This document shows positions 22,184-47,096 of a stretch of 64,000 nucleotides of DNA, in pieces; the first letter of the stretch is position 1; the number at the start of each line of letters is the position of its first letter. The DNA is from Bacteroidales bacterium (GTDB taxonomy: Bacteria; Bacteroidota; Bacteroidia; Bacteroidales; Azobacteroidaceae). The translations under genes were made by a program, and so were the position numbers. The notes under the pieces are model-generated. The model searched no databases and had not been told where the DNA came from. It saw only the letters and a program-made list of their open reading frames with translations. The stretch is from assembly GCA_003851245.1 (NCBI GenBank), contig BHEP01000003.1, forward strand, positions 1 to 64,000. The letters are read 5' to 3'.

Positions 22184-22792
22184 TTAAAATATGTGTCTGA
22201 AATCTTCTCCGTTTTTGGGTAGGTATGTTTTCATACCAAATTTCTCGCCAGCGATGATATTTGCTGGGCCATCGTCGATGAATAATGTTTCGCTAGGGAT
22301 TAGTCCTGAATCCTGAATCATAAATTCATAAATTTTGTCGTGAGGTTTGGTATATCCTATTTCGTACGATAAGTACAACTTGTCAAAATATTGGTCAAGG
22401 CTTTTTCCTTTTTCTGAAAATTGAGGAGTCCTAGCCCACGACATAATCACAGGATTGGTATTGCTCAGCAGGTATAGCTTGTATTTTTTAGCCAGCTCTT
22501 CCAGCATTTCTAATTTGTAGGCAGGGGTTTCTTTGATAAAACCAAACCATGCGTAATCAATTTTTTCTGCCGCGATGTCTTTTCCCGCAATTTGTCGTAG
22601 CTGTTCATAAAAATTTTCTTTAGATATTTTCCCTTCTTCTAGTTCGAGAAATATTCCCTTTTGATGATAAGCATCCAGAAGATCTTCGGCACTGTCTACA
22701 CCAATTTCTATAAATCGTCTTACAGCCTCGTCTCTATCCAAGGTGATGATGACTCCTCCTAAGTCAAATACTATGTTTTTAATGTTGTCCAT
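22184..22792 (-). CDS. HAD-superfamily phosphatase (YihX-like)
   Basis: Cytoplasmic phosphatase acting on a small phosphorylated metabolite. The 202 residues have motif I VFDLGGVIITLD (Asp10), motif II LLSNTNP, and motif III-IV SLIPSETLFIDDGPANIIAG. The second motif I Asp is replaced by Gly (DLGGV), as in the YihX sugar-phosphatase branch, so this is not evidence of inactivity. Substrate unknown. Confidence 0.88.
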   Translation of the reverse strand: MDNIKNIVFDLGGVIITLDRDEAVRRFIEIGVDSAEDLLDAYHQKGIFLELEEGKISKENFYEQLRQIAGKDIAAEKIDYAWFGFIKETPAYKLEMLEELAKKYKLYLLSNTNPVIMSWARTPQFSEKGKSLDQYFDKLYLSYEIGYTKPHDKIYEFMIQDSGLIPSETLFIDDGPANIIAGEKFGMKTYLPKNGEDFRHIF

Positions 22793-22846
22793 TTATTTTT
22801 TATTGTTGTATGTGTTGTATTTTTTATTGTTTCTGTTCAGATAGGT

Positions 22847-22966
22847 ACTTCTATAAATTGCTTTTTCTTCCTTGTCTACGGGTTTCTAAATGATCATTTG
22901 CAAAGGCAAACTCCCTTCCTTATCACCCTTGACAGCGTCGAAAAATATAATTTTTAGAACCCCTCT
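22847..22966 (-). repeat. 120-bp dispersed repeat, copy A
   Basis: This 120-bp block matches copy B (30524-30643) in inverted orientation with three mismatches. It begins on the last base of the LMW-phosphatase stop codon and runs downstream of that gene, in the same gene-relative orientation as copy B. A conserved short frame on the plus strand (from 22890, about 26 codons, ICKGKLPSLSPL...) is open in both copies; one difference is synonymous and one is Ile/Val. No terminal inverted repeats or transposase were seen. Confidence 0.9.
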
Positions 22967-23439
22967 TATATTTTGGTGCTTTCTAAAAGACCTTGGCAGG
23001 CATCTTCAAGCAGATCAAGCACCAATTCAAATCCTTGGGCTCCTCCATAATACGGATCAGGAATATGATCGCAGGAGTGCTTACTGCAATATTCCGACAT
23101 TCGTCTAATTTTTTTCTTGCTTTCCAAGTCTGGCGCTTTTTGTTCCAGTGCCTCTATATTGTTGTCGTCCATACCAATAATGAGGTCGAAATCAAAAAAA
23201 TCTTGGTATACCACAGCCCTAGAGCGAGAGTTTAGATCGTAATTTCTTCTCTTTCCATGTGCCCGCATCCTGCTGTCGGGCAGTTGTCCCTCATGTATTC
23301 CCAATATGCCTGCCGAATCAATACAGAAGTCGTTTTGGAGTCCCTTGTCAAGCACCATCTTTTTCATTATGGCCTCAGCACTTGGCGATCTACATATATT
23401 TCCTAAGCAAACGAATAATATTTTTTTCTGTTCCATCAT
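22966..23439 (-). CDS. Low-molecular-weight protein-tyrosine phosphatase
   Basis: Dephosphorylates phosphotyrosine; in Bacteroidota it is often tied to envelope or capsule control, which is an inference here. The 157 residues begin with the catalytic loop CLGNICRS (Cys11, Arg17) and have the general-acid DPYYGG near residue 130. Start could be at either of two adjacent ATGs (23439 or 23436). Its stop codon abuts the dispersed repeat copy A. Confidence 0.95.
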   Translation of the reverse strand: MMEQKKILFVCLGNICRSPSAEAIMKKMVLDKGLQNDFCIDSAGILGIHEGQLPDSRMRAHGKRRNYDLNSRSRAVVYQDFFDFDLIIGMDDNNIEALEQKAPDLESKKKIRRMSEYCSKHSCDHIPDPYYGGAQGFELVLDLLEDACQGLLESTKI

Positions 23440-29601: not shown

Positions 29602-30495
29602 ATGGAGTTCAAGAAAATATTTTTAATAAGTCTTTTATTCTCATTCTTATCTTTCTTCTCGTGTATAGAGAATGAGGTATATGTGGATTTAGCAGGTTAT
29701 GAAATGCCCTATTTCCAAGTAGAAGAGGTGAATGTTGAGAAAGAGATATCGTCTATTTACTTCAATACAGATGTGCATGAGGATACTGTATTCGTTCATT
29801 TTAGGTATCTGCGCTATGAGTTGAAGATTCCTGACGGCTTAAAATGTAGGGTTGAGGTATATTTCAACGACGATGTTCGTGATTATTCTGCTTTTACCTC
29901 ATATATAAATATTCCCCTAGATTCTGGCACACATACTATGCGTGTAGAGTTGATAATGAGTTTCGATTCCTCAAAATCACAAGATATCAATTGGGGCCAA
30001 GAGGAGGTGTATCGAGAGATTCATGAATGGGTTGTTGTGGTTCAGCCTCGGTCTACGGTTCTAAATGTTAGAACTTCAAGAACCTACGAAGGAGAGGTAG
30101 TTTTCTTTTGGGATAAACCCGATCCATATTATGGAGAATTAGACTATTTTCTTGTTTCCAGCTTAGGATCAAGAACACCCGTGCGCACGGAGAATCAATT
30201 TTTCACTCTCAAAGATTTTTCCAACAGAGAGCAGCAATATGTTGTTACAGCGCGTTTTAAAGAGGGCTTCCTCAAGGACTGGGAGGAATTGGTTGGGCTC
30301 AAGCAGAAGCACACAGGTCTTCCTTCTGGTTTGCTGCAGGCGCAGCCAGTGAATGGTGCGATGGTAGATAGCCTTGTTTCCAGACGTGAGCAAGATGCTA
30401 GATCCAAATATGAAAGAGAGGGCAGTGACAACAAGATTCAGTTTAATAGCAAAGGAGTTTCGGTATTTAGAATATATCCTAAAAACAGAAATTAA
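29602..30495 (+). CDS. Unknown lipoprotein, Ig-like
   Basis: I do not recognise a named family. The 297-residue protein has a clear lipoprotein signal with lipobox FFSC (Cys21), then IENEVYVDLAGYEMPYFQVEEV. It looks beta-rich, and the middle part (about 145-225: VVVVQPRSTVLNVRTSRTY, then VVFFWDKPDPYYGELDYFLV) resembles a fibronectin/Ig-like domain such as those of DUF4998-like surface proteins; this is an impression only. The C-terminal third is polar, ending RIYPKNRN. It has its own promoter-like element and is followed by the 120-bp repeat copy B. No function is assigned. Confidence 0.7.
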   Translation: MEFKKIFLISLLFSFLSFFSCIENEVYVDLAGYEMPYFQVEEVNVEKEISSIYFNTDVHEDTVFVHFRYLRYELKIPDGLKCRVEVYFNDDVRDYSAFTSYINIPLDSGTHTMRVELIMSFDSSKSQDINWGQEEVYREIHEWVVVVQPRSTVLNVRTSRTYEGEVVFFWDKPDPYYGELDYFLVSSLGSRTPVRTENQFFTLKDFSNREQQYVVTARFKEGFLKDWEELVGLKQKHTGLPSGLLQAQPVNGAMVDSLVSRREQDARSKYEREGSDNKIQFNSKGVSVFRIYPKNRN

Positions 30496-30523
30496 TTTTT
30501 TAGAATGCAATAAAAATTTATAG

Positions 30524-30643
30524 AGAGGGGTTCTAAAAATTATATTTTTCGACGCTGTCAAGGGTGATAAGGAAGGGAGCTTGCCTTTGCAAATGACCAT
30601 TTAGAATCCCGTAGACAAGGAAGAAAAAGCAATTTATAGAAGT
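30524..30643 (+). repeat. 120-bp dispersed repeat, copy B
   Basis: Reverse complement of copy A with three mismatches over 120 bp. It starts 28 nt after the stop codon of the lipoprotein gene and is oriented away from it exactly as copy A is from its own upstream gene. The strong hairpin terminator at 30656 follows immediately. The short open frame seen in copy A is also open here on the minus strand. Confidence 0.9.
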
Positions 30644-30655
30644 CTCGTAGATTTT

Positions 30656-37677: not shown

Positions 37678-38316
37678 ATGACAAAAGAAAAAGAATTAGA
37701 AGAATTTATCAATAACGCACACCGCTATGGCAGGGAGGGTTTTGTGCCCTGTAGCAGTGGCAATCTATCAGCAAGGGCTGGCGAAAACATCATTATTTCG
37801 GGAACAGGATCATGGCTTTCTAGTCTCAGGAAGGAACAAGTGTCTGTATGCAAGCTAGAAACGGGAGCTTTTGTAAATGGCATAAAGCCTTCTATGGAAA
37901 ATGGATTTCACCTAGGCGTGTTCCGCAATCGCCCCGATGTAAATGTGGTACTTCATTTTCAGTCGCACTATGCCACAGCTGTATCCTGTATGAAGAATGT
38001 AGGAGAGCTCGATTTCAATGTGACGGCAGAAATCCCCTGCCATGTAGGCAAAGAAATTCCCCTAATACCCTACCTCAGACCAGGCTCCAAAGAGCTAGCA
38101 AATGCTGTAAGCGAAACACTAAAGACGCACAATGCCTGCCTCTTGATAAATCATGGGCAGGTAGTTTGCGGAAAATCTTACGATGAGGTTTTTGAAAAAG
38201 CCAGTTTCTTTGAAATGGCTTGCCGCATCATCGTACAATCGGGCATGAATTACAACACATTGTCGGATCAGCAGATAGAAGACCTAGAAGTATATGTACT
38301 GGGAAAAAAAATATAA
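37678..38316 (+). CDS. fucA: Class II L-fuculose-phosphate aldolase
   Basis: Splits L-fuculose-1-phosphate into dihydroxyacetone phosphate and L-lactaldehyde. The 212 residues show the phosphate loop SSGNLSAR (27-33), the catalytic Glu region PSMENGFH (Glu74), and zinc ligands His93 and His159 (LINHGQVVCG). The third ligand, His94 of E. coli, is Gln95 here (LHFQSHYAT). A different ligand geometry or specificity is possible. It starts 45 bp after fucI. Confidence 0.9.
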   Translation: MTKEKELEEFINNAHRYGREGFVPCSSGNLSARAGENIIISGTGSWLSSLRKEQVSVCKLETGAFVNGIKPSMENGFHLGVFRNRPDVNVVLHFQSHYATAVSCMKNVGELDFNVTAEIPCHVGKEIPLIPYLRPGSKELANAVSETLKTHNACLLINHGQVVCGKSYDEVFEKASFFEMACRIIVQSGMNYNTLSDQQIEDLEVYVLGKKI

Positions 38317-38387
38317 TTTTTAGGAAGCCTCTCATTAATATACATTTTGACAATTAAACCGTATTTTATAAGCGATATCTATAAGCT

Positions 38388-45233: not shown

Positions 45234-45941
45234 TTATTTAGTCTTCTTACAAATCAAATTAGAGAGCAAAGAAATGAGGATGTAAGTGCAGATACATAGA
45301 CTAATTCCCCAATATATATTGCTTATAGACAATATTAGAATGCACATGCAAACGAAAACGATGGCAATCTCGTTTCCTTTCCATGTGCATTTGCTTATTT
45401 TAAGTGAGAACATTGGAATGTTTGATACCAAGAGCCAAGAGAAAATGAATACCAATGCAATGCAAATAAATGGCAGAAAGGTATATTTGTCCGACAATTG
45501 AATGAGGGCAGGAATTAAAGAAGCCCAAAAAAGTGCGTTTGCAGGCACTGGAAGTCCAATGAATGAGCTTGTTTGCCTGTCGTCTATATTGAATTTTGCT
45601 AGGCGCAGGGCTGAAAAAACAGGTATGAAAAACCCCAAATATGGCAGATAACTAGCAATCTCACTAGTTATGCCTATTTCACTTATAGATAGATATTTAA
45701 ATACTATAAGTCCTGGAGCCATGCCAAAGCTAATAAGGTCGGCCAACGAATCAAGTTCCTTGCCCATAGCAGAATAAGCTTTTAGGATGCGTGCTGCAAA
45801 GCCATCAAAAAAATCAAAGACTGCCGAAAGAATAATAAACCAAAGAGCCCATAAGAAGTTCCCTTCAAACGCCATAAGGCAGGCCAAGCATCCAGAGAGA
45901 AGATTGAGGCAGGTTATAAAATTAGGAATGTAAGCCCTCAT
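45234..45941 (-). CDS. pssA: CDP-diacylglycerol-serine O-phosphatidyltransferase
   Basis: Makes phosphatidylserine from CDP-diacylglycerol and serine in the inner membrane. The 235-residue protein has about seven hydrophobic segments and the CDP-alcohol phosphotransferase signature DFFDGFAAR followed by GKELDSLAD. Its start overlaps the psd stop by 4 bp (ATGA-type), so the two successive enzymes are made together. Confidence 0.95.
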   Translation of the reverse strand: MRAYIPNFITCLNLLSGCLACLMAFEGNFLWALWFIILSAVFDFFDGFAARILKAYSAMGKELDSLADLISFGMAPGLIVFKYLSISEIGITSEIASYLPYLGFFIPVFSALRLAKFNIDDRQTSSFIGLPVPANALFWASLIPALIQLSDKYTFLPFICIALVFIFSWLLVSNIPMFSLKISKCTWKGNEIAIVFVCMCILILSISNIYWGISLCICTYILISLLSNLICKKTK

Positions 45942-46597
45942 GACAAACGAGCTATGGCAGTAATATTCCCTCTTACTTTCTGCTCCATTTCTACCAATAT
46001 CTCTGAGCCTAAGGGTAGATAAATATCCACTCTCGATCCAAATTTTATAAAACCCATCTGTTGATTAATTTGACATTCTTGCCCCTCTTTGGGGTAGGTT
46101 ACTATGCGTTTGGCGAGAGCTCCAGCTACTTGTCTTGCCAAAATTTGTATGCCATCAGGAGTCTCTATAACAACTGTAGACCTCTCATTTTCAGTGCTGG
46201 ACTTTGGTAGGTATGCGGCCATAAAGCGTCCTTTTTGGTGCGAGGAATGAAGAATTTTTCCACTTATAGGCATCCAATTGATATGAACGTTAAAAACATT
46301 CATGAATATAGATACTTGTAGTCGCTTATCATGAAAATACTCATTTTCCATTACCTCTTCTATCACCACAATTGTGCCATCGGCAGGGCAGGACACAATC
46401 CCTTTCTCCATATGTGGGAAAACGCGCTTGGGGCTCCTAAAAAAGTTGAGTATCAGCAGAAATAAACTTAGCAATAAGAGGCTTAGTGGATAAAATATAA
46501 GTGCGTTTCCCAATAGCAGATACAAAACTACATTGAGAAGGCATAAGACAGTGAATGATATGACAAGTATTTTGTATCCTTCTTTGTGGATCTTCAT
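45938..46597 (-). CDS. psd: Phosphatidylserine decarboxylase, short type
   Basis: Decarboxylates phosphatidylserine to phosphatidylethanolamine. Reading from the ATG at 46597 gives 219 residues (a TTG at 46606 is less likely). Two N-terminal hydrophobic segments (about 13-50) precede the catalytic part with CPADGTIVVIEEV and FMNVFNVHINWMPI. The self-cleaving site that forms the pyruvoyl group is the Gly-Ser in FIKFGSRVDIY. The length fits the short archaeal-like Psd form common in Bacteroidota. Confidence 0.94.
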   Translation of the reverse strand: MKIHKEGYKILVISFTVLCLLNVVLYLLLGNALIFYPLSLLLLSLFLLILNFFRSPKRVFPHMEKGIVSCPADGTIVVIEEVMENEYFHDKRLQVSIFMNVFNVHINWMPISGKILHSSHQKGRFMAAYLPKSSTENERSTVVIETPDGIQILARQVAGALAKRIVTYPKEGQECQINQQMGFIKFGSRVDIYLPLGSEILVEMEQKVRGNITAIARLS

Positions 46598-46637
46598 TGT
46601 AAACAATTAAATGATAAAATTTCTATTCATACAAGCG

Positions 46638-46669: not shown

Positions 46670-46720
46670 TATTTTTTTGGCCACTCCTACATTTTACTTA
46701 ATTATGGGAGCTATGGGACC

Positions 46721-46750
46721 TCTATAAATTGCTTTTTTTTAGAAGCCCTC
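46721..46750 (-). repeat. 30-bp deletion derivative of the dispersed repeat (copy C)
   Basis: The left 17 bp match one end of the 120-bp repeat (TCTATAAATTGCTTTTT) and the right 15 bp match the other end with one mismatch (TTTTTAGAAGCCCTC), joined through a shared T-run as if the middle had been deleted. It lies 1 nt after the stop codon of the SUI1 gene, in the same gene-relative orientation as copies A and B. Confidence 0.6.
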
Positions 46751-46751
46751 G

Positions 46752-47096
46752 CTAGATGATTCGACTTTTAAGATAGGATTCTTTAAGCAAAATATCTAAA
46801 ACTCTTTTTCGTAAATCTCCTTGGATGATAATTTGTTGGTCTTTGGCAGATCCTCCCACACCACATTTAGCCTTTAGTAGCTTGCCCAAAACTTGCAGGT
46901 CGTGGTCGCAGCCCACAAAGCCTGTGATGAGAGTTACCGCCTTGCCCGCCCTGTTTTTTTTATCTAAGGAGATCCTTAAACACTGCTTTTCCTTATTCAG
47001 AGTCTCCTCTTCCCTTACCTCTTCTTTCTCATATTCAAAGCTAGAATTTGTAGAATATACAATATTGAGCCTCTCTTTCCAGTCGTCTTTTTTCAT
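46752..47096 (-). CDS. SUI1/eIF1-family translation factor (YciH-like)
   Basis: Bacterial homologue of eukaryotic initiation factor eIF1, thought to affect start-site fidelity. The 114 residues have a variable charged N-terminal part (YEKEEVREEETLNKEK) and the SUI1 core NRAGKAVTLITGFVG, GKLLKAKCGVGGSAKD and IIIQGDLRKRVLDIL. It is transcribed divergently from rex, with 150 bp between them; a TAATTTTG on the minus strand (47157-47150) is a possible -7 box. Confidence 0.92.
   Translation of the reverse strand: MKKDDWKERLNIVYSTNSSFEYEKEEVREEETLNKEKQCLRISLDKKNRAGKAVTLITGFVGCDHDLQVLGKLLKAKCGVGGSAKDQQIIIQGDLRKRVLDILLKESYLKSRII

Follow-up and report, generated by a model that had tools for sequence, protein, structure and literature searches.

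The 120-bp repeat found in the analysed stretch of 64,000 nucleotides (hereafter the window) is very probably a non-autonomous MITE with the ends of IS5-family insertion sequences (ISs; NCBIfam IS5_4). The repeat is short and multi-copy, holds no conserved reading frame, and displays terminal inverted repeats (TIRs), a target site duplication (TSD) fixed at 4 bp, an empty site, and ends common to IS5-family elements which likewise produce a 4-bp duplication; on these features, the criteria for a MITE, the assignment is based. MITEs derived from parents of a familiar type are themselves familiar. Its folded core, which crosses phylum boundaries and is probably present also in ERIC, is undescribed in the searchable literature. 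The following features were located in the window:

22843..22965, plus strand: copy A, full-length, 123 bp; left end mutated (AGGTAC instead of CGGGAC), without TSD
22862..22933, minus strand: folded core of copy A, match of model R3 (see below; built without the window copies), E 6.8e-4
30521..30524: target duplication of copy B, low-coordinate side, TAGA on the plus strand, TCTA in element orientation
30525..30647, minus strand: copy B, full-length, 123 bp
30557..30628, plus strand: folded core of copy B, match of model R3, E 0.043
30648..30651: target duplication of copy B, high-coordinate side
about 38304..38335, plus strand: right-end remnant, the fourth in the window, covering the last codons and the stop of gene 37678-38316
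46710..46713: target duplication GCTA of copy C
46714..46750, plus strand: copy C, 37-bp internal-deletion derivative with both ends kept; junction inside a TTTTT run found in both arms
46751..46754: target duplication GCTA of copy C; the CTA of this right GCTA is the SUI1 stop codon (TAG on the minus strand)

Copies A and B differ from each other at 3 of 120 aligned positions. Copy A adjoins the stop codon of gene 22966-23439(-), a low-molecular-weight tyrosine phosphatase judging by its sequence, and lies at the same time 5' of gene 22184-22792(-). Copy B begins 29 nt past the stop of the lipoprotein gene 29602-30495(+), with convergent genes on both sides. Copy C, whose existence had been proposed correctly but with a slightly smaller extent, is also located 5' of gene 45938-46606(-). 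In the aldolase-like gene 37678-38316, the final codons and the stop are supplied by the right-end remnant of the element.

Chance does not account for the repeat: the source genome, 118 contigs with 2.94 Mb in total, gave 41 matches to a 131-base query at E <= 10, and in 17 cases nearly the whole query was covered, at E-values no worse than about 1e-33. About a dozen matches represented fragments or deletion derivatives. The multi-copy repeat of the original prediction is therefore real, and the family extends well beyond the window copies, to about 17 near-complete copies plus fragments. The shortest form noted was a 26-bp end-to-end derivative (L043, G000:C106:2931) between SusC-like and SusD-like genes, flanked by TAATAA repeats. 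The right flank of one copy occurs on two contigs (G000:C35:1210 and G000:C52:20080); C52 terminates inside the element, likely an assembly break at a duplicated region. It had also been suggested that the repeat encodes a tiny gene of about 26 codons, and stop-free frames of 25-41 codons do exist in the copies. However, frames this long are expected by chance, indels of 1-2 bases between copies of the same genome shift them, and the reading frames are not kept between copies, so that the probability of a coding role is next to nil.

Outside of the source genome, the element was detected at equal length by blastn in 12 others among 295 sampled genomes of the order, some of these 12 being represented by fragments only. 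Named Bacteroidales assemblies, among them Marinifilum, Draconibacterium, Paludibacter and 'Acetofilamentum', carry it in at least 111 stretches, and full-length relatives are 71-79% identical to the source-genome consensus. Several genera contain long forms of ~165-178 bp (L210, L155, L234, L193), in which one arm bears a shared insertion TTATTCACAAG...CGCTTCGCTAAGTT. The 24 searched genomes of the same family gave no match to the MITE, and some of the family's tested genomes have the IS. Searches of phages and viral contigs yielded no match to the full element, and in the plasmid collection the core alone was matched, not the whole element.

The boundaries of the element were derived from aligned copies and run from CGGGACTTCTATAAATTGCTTTTTC ... 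to GAAAAATCTAATTTTTAGAACCCCTC, with a length of 121-125 bp (115 unique elements, peaking at 121-123). Read inward, the termini are imperfect inverted repeats, CGGGACTTCTATAAATTGC-TTTTTC and GAGGGGTTCTAAAAATTAGATTTTTC; the terminal arms form 17 pairs, and 94-95% of cells are paired across 36 elements. The earlier statement that terminal inverted repeats are missing was thus wrong; they were overlooked probably because the repeat is imperfect and contains one inserted base. An exact 4-bp direct repeat borders 10 of the 14 unique source-genome copies that pass the boundary rule (shuffled mean 1.1). When all loci were considered, an exact 4-bp TSD was found in 74 of 115 unique elements, as against a mean of 12.1 and a maximum of 22 in 1000 shuffles, and other repeat lengths at the same boundaries were rare (3 bp in 7, 5 bp in 3 and 6 bp in 0 elements). 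The target sites were TTAA (19), TTTA (12), TATA (9), TAAA (8), ATAA (6), TTAT (5) and a few others. In one case an empty site was recovered: the contig of locus L236 also holds a 95% identical paralogous stretch that lacks the element and has a single TTAT.

As for the source of transposition activity, the best candidate is P0001, a 353-aa IS5-family transposase (NCBIfam IS5_4, E 3.9e-78; Pfam DDE_Tnp_1 and DUF772) whose element terminates in GGGGGTTCTATAATTT and GGTGGGTTCTAAAAATTCA. Other DDE transposases of MITE-rich genomes were considered as parents as well, and the ends were found only with the P0001 type. Relatives of P0001 with 50-80% identity often, not always, possess a GGGGACTTCTAAAAATTA-type left end and a GGTGGGTTCTAAAAATT right end, and two of them are flanked on both sides by target duplications (TTAA at L365, AATA at L364); among IS5_4 relatives at about 30% identity, MITE-type ends were not found. 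Two genomes of the window's own family, G011 and G316, contain such ISs with GGGGACTTCTAAAAATTA on the left and right, in several copies in G011. A TIR search of viral contigs for a parent IS returned chance matches only. The original prediction saw no transposase, and this holds for the entire assembled source genome, in which neither a PF01609 gene above cut-off nor a relative of the candidate transposase was detected. This absence, the lack of MITE matches in the same-family genomes, the missing TSD of copy A and the want of visible similarity between IS and MITE further inside count against the proposed explanation.

The IS5-family ISs (NCBIfam NF033581, IS5_4) resemble the MITE in their terminal 16-18 bp and in the 4-bp target duplication, whereas they are about 1.3-1.4 kb long, encode the 353-aa transposase and have no palindromic core; past about 26 bp, no shared sequence is visible. 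Genome G152 harbours a second palindromic MITE, GGCAGTTCTAAAAATTCAAAAAAAATAGTTTCCCGCAGATTT... (L248, L252, L259 and others), whose 16-bp ends are almost identical to those of the first and whose target sites are similar, but whose interior is different. From this, it follows that the relation to the transposase is defined by the ends and not by the interior. Judging from the sequences, the MITE would be moved in trans by an IS5_4 transposase: the enzyme supplied by the IS would cut at the GGG..TTCTAWAAATT ends, and the element would then enter AT-rich 4-bp sites (the six named above) and duplicate them. With TIRs, the 4-bp TSD, an empty site and a parent IS, the small mobile element suspected at the outset is borne out.

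Comparable elements are known from the same phylum. Porphyromonas gingivalis harbours the IS5-derived MITE239, MITE464/MITEPgRS, MITE700 and BrickBuilt, whose TIRs are common to IS5-family ISs of that phylum (PMC4596501). They share with the present MITE the short, non-coding, intergenic nature and the IS5-family TIRs (PMC4596501). However, their TIRs (GAGACC..TGCA, ACGT..TCGA) are unrelated to the CGGGACTTCTATAAATTG described here, and the present MITE differs from them by a fold-back interior conserved across families and phyla.

The full element forms one imperfect palindrome with about 58 bp per arm and a loop of 4-5 nt. Inside it lies a hairpin core whose stems co-vary and whose two internal loops, AAGGC/AACG and GGAG/TGA, are conserved. 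In a hand-drawn hairpin of 37 pairs, 91.9% of cells were paired across 36 elements, a percentage that leans towards the hairpin since it was drawn on these same sequences; stronger evidence comes from the double changes, which numbered 55 cells versus 17.9 in shuffles, with none of 500 shuffles reaching 55. When one strand was slid along the other, pairing fell to 33-58%. The arms co-vary between genera, for example from TTTAC/GTAAA to TTTGC/GCAAA, or from GGAC/GTCC to GAAC/GTTC and GCAC/GTGC. Folding, which had been proposed as a check, showed that the whole interior folds back stably (z -2.1 to -3.8). Among the mismatches of the inner arms, G-T (21) and A-C (15) were about equal and did not point to selection acting on a single RNA strand, and the co-variation of arms could have arisen in DNA, by template switching within palindromes. 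The recurrence of the fold suggests that the fold itself matters. It would be retained because the element needs its folded DNA or its transcript, and for the core too we infer a requirement for folded DNA or RNA.

Next, the placement of copies relative to genes was analyzed in 93 unique elements with flanks, using simple longest-frame gene calls and open frames of >=70 codons. Co-directional gaps contained 53 elements, divergent gaps 16 and convergent gaps 13, while 11 elements lay inside open frames; by length, the intergenic background is 64, 24 and 13% in the same order of gap types. In co-directional gaps, the median distance to the upstream stop was 14 nt, compared to 51 at random sites drawn from the same gaps and weighted by target preference. 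Elements lay within 10 nt of the stop in 26 of 53 cases versus 11 expected (maximum 21 in 1000 draws). Relative to genes with a 3' end within 30 nt, orientation was 20:20. The supposed targeting of 3' ends therefore stands insofar as copies in co-directional gaps are nearer to stop codons than by chance, but not as a rule of placement, since copies occur also in divergent gaps, in open frames and in either orientation.

Such a distribution bears on the idea that the repeat is a structured 3'-UTR RNA (a terminator, a stabiliser or a sRNA) which was multiplied by duplication and exerts its effect on the gene before it. The enrichment just behind stop codons, the stable fold, the conserved internal loops and the co-varying stems would all suit this reading. 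However, the balanced orientation, the gap types that track the background and the 11 elements within open frames argue against an oriented 3'-end RNA element. Moreover, the TSDs indicate insertion, the end of the element lacks a T-run, and no Rfam family corresponds to it: neither the elements in the window nor related palindromes gave a gathering-score match, and around copy A there was none up to E 1. We consider a 3'-UTR RNA quite improbable. Under the transposition reading, we ascribe the closeness to 3' ends to the loss of insertions near gene starts and to an overlap of the AT-rich target sites with stop codons; the transposition machinery might, in addition, genuinely prefer such places. 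Insertions in or just behind a stop codon would be harmless and kept, those near starts or promoters would be lost, and copies would consequently appear attached to 3' ends. Placement on the 3' side of genes was described also for QMITE2 of Coxiella burnetii and for ERIC copies (PMC10969869), and their likeness to the present MITE concerns this reported placement.

The core is found well beyond Bacteroidales. In a blastn search of a 7.3-Gb plasmid collection, a 42-base apex query matched 40 bases of a Staphylococcus aureus record at 97.5% identity (E 3e-10), at a position which Rfam identifies as the 16S-23S rRNA spacer. The record in question, NZ_CP077935.1, is filed as a plasmid and contains the core at several places (L419, L425, L430), one of them in the rRNA spacer; it looks chromosomal, given that rRNA genes are present along with murT, glmM and other core genes. 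Weaker matches came from Halomonas, Haliscomenobacter and Pseudomonas veronii, each at the apex of a long palindrome with unrelated ends. Covariance model R1, made from 21 Bacteroidales cores only, recovered the same groups in 232 kb (Staphylococcus spacer 2.7e-10, Halomonas 3.1e-8, P. veronii 2.1e-7, Haliscomenobacter 4.5e-6; by the tool's own statement, all model E-values are rough). Model R2 (14 cores, ERIC left out) was applied to 296 genomes of the phylum and matched 33 at E <= 1e-3; most of these belong to family f136, in which up to 23 or more core copies per genome occur. The elements of this family (L437-L462) are palindromes of about 142-153 bp with visible 4-bp duplications (TTAT, TTGT, TCAA) and ends GGGCACCTCTAWAAA that resemble IS5-type ends; some of the genomes hold >20 copies of the palindrome. 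Model R3 was composed of 16 cores from f136, f142, Gammaproteobacteria, Haliscomenobacter and Bacteroidales, without ERIC, the window copies and Staphylococcus, and it matched the Staphylococcus spacer (E 3.6e-9) along with both window copies (E-values in the list above). The kept letters, AAGGC, GGAG, TTAC..GTAA, TGA and AACG, occupy mainly unpaired loop positions. There is strong support for a core common to Bacteroidota, Halomonas, Pseudomonas, Haliscomenobacter and the Staphylococcus spacer. Literature searches by sequence and subject, with most subscription journals outside their scope, retrieved no description of the cross-phylum core or of this MITE.

Strain typing with ERIC is long established, and the repeat is not known to have a transposase. 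When 90 kb of E. coli were searched with R2, ERIC ranked first (E 0.078, 17.1 bits; next match E 2.7), and with R3, whose alignment to ERIC spans the full 79 positions (E 0.013, rough calibration), nothing else was matched up to E 10. With R1, the ERIC apex was the best E. coli match, far weaker than the other cores found with this model (E 0.66, 16.1 bits). A loop signature, drawn up after ERIC had been seen, had no hit among Markov controls of 3.6 Mb and a single hit, ERIC, in the 90 kb. ERIC (also IRU or RU-1, 127 bp) resembles the MITE in being nearly of the same length, palindromic, intergenic and present in many genera, and its core loops AAGGC, GGAG, TTAC..GTAA, TGA and AACGCAG align with the MITE core over the 79 positions, while its arms differ. 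ERIC has TA at its termini and a short TIR of its own, unlike the MITE with its 4-bp TTAA-type TSD and GGG..TTCTAWAAATT ends (PMC2229807). Such alignments are suggestive of the same core in ERIC.

The core might alternatively have arisen repeatedly, with palindromes converging on similar apices and ERIC resembling them by chance. The modest ERIC match (E 0.013, rough; 17.1 bits with R2, 16.1 with R1) and palindromy itself, which cuts the number of independent positions, would be compatible with convergence. Nevertheless, we regard it as unlikely: the Bacteroidales-only model, run on 232 kb, reaches four other groups with E-values between 3e-10 and 5e-6, blastn over 7.3 Gb matches the Staphylococcus spacer at E 3e-10, and the conserved letters reside in unpaired loops, where palindromy does not explain them. 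Furthermore, ERIC is the sole match in its 90 kb along the entire alignment, and the loop signature is absent from the Markov controls, with the proviso that it was written with ERIC in view. To common descent we give about an even chance, that is, to a single pan-bacterial superfamily of fold-back mobile elements, ERIC included, which kept the core with its two loops and swapped the ends. In such a superfamily the same core would have been kept while the ends recognised by transposases changed, so the core would have to do something of its own; for instance, as folded DNA or RNA, it may be a substrate for binding or processing.

The MITE is thus widespread in Bacteroidales, apparently without a name so far, and its mode of insertion and retention would explain the seeming attachment to gene ends. 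If ERIC and a MITE with IS5-type ends have a common ancestral core, the nature of such palindromes and the reason for their persistence would become testable, as the Bacteroidota members come with an identified candidate transposase and with core loops open to mutation.
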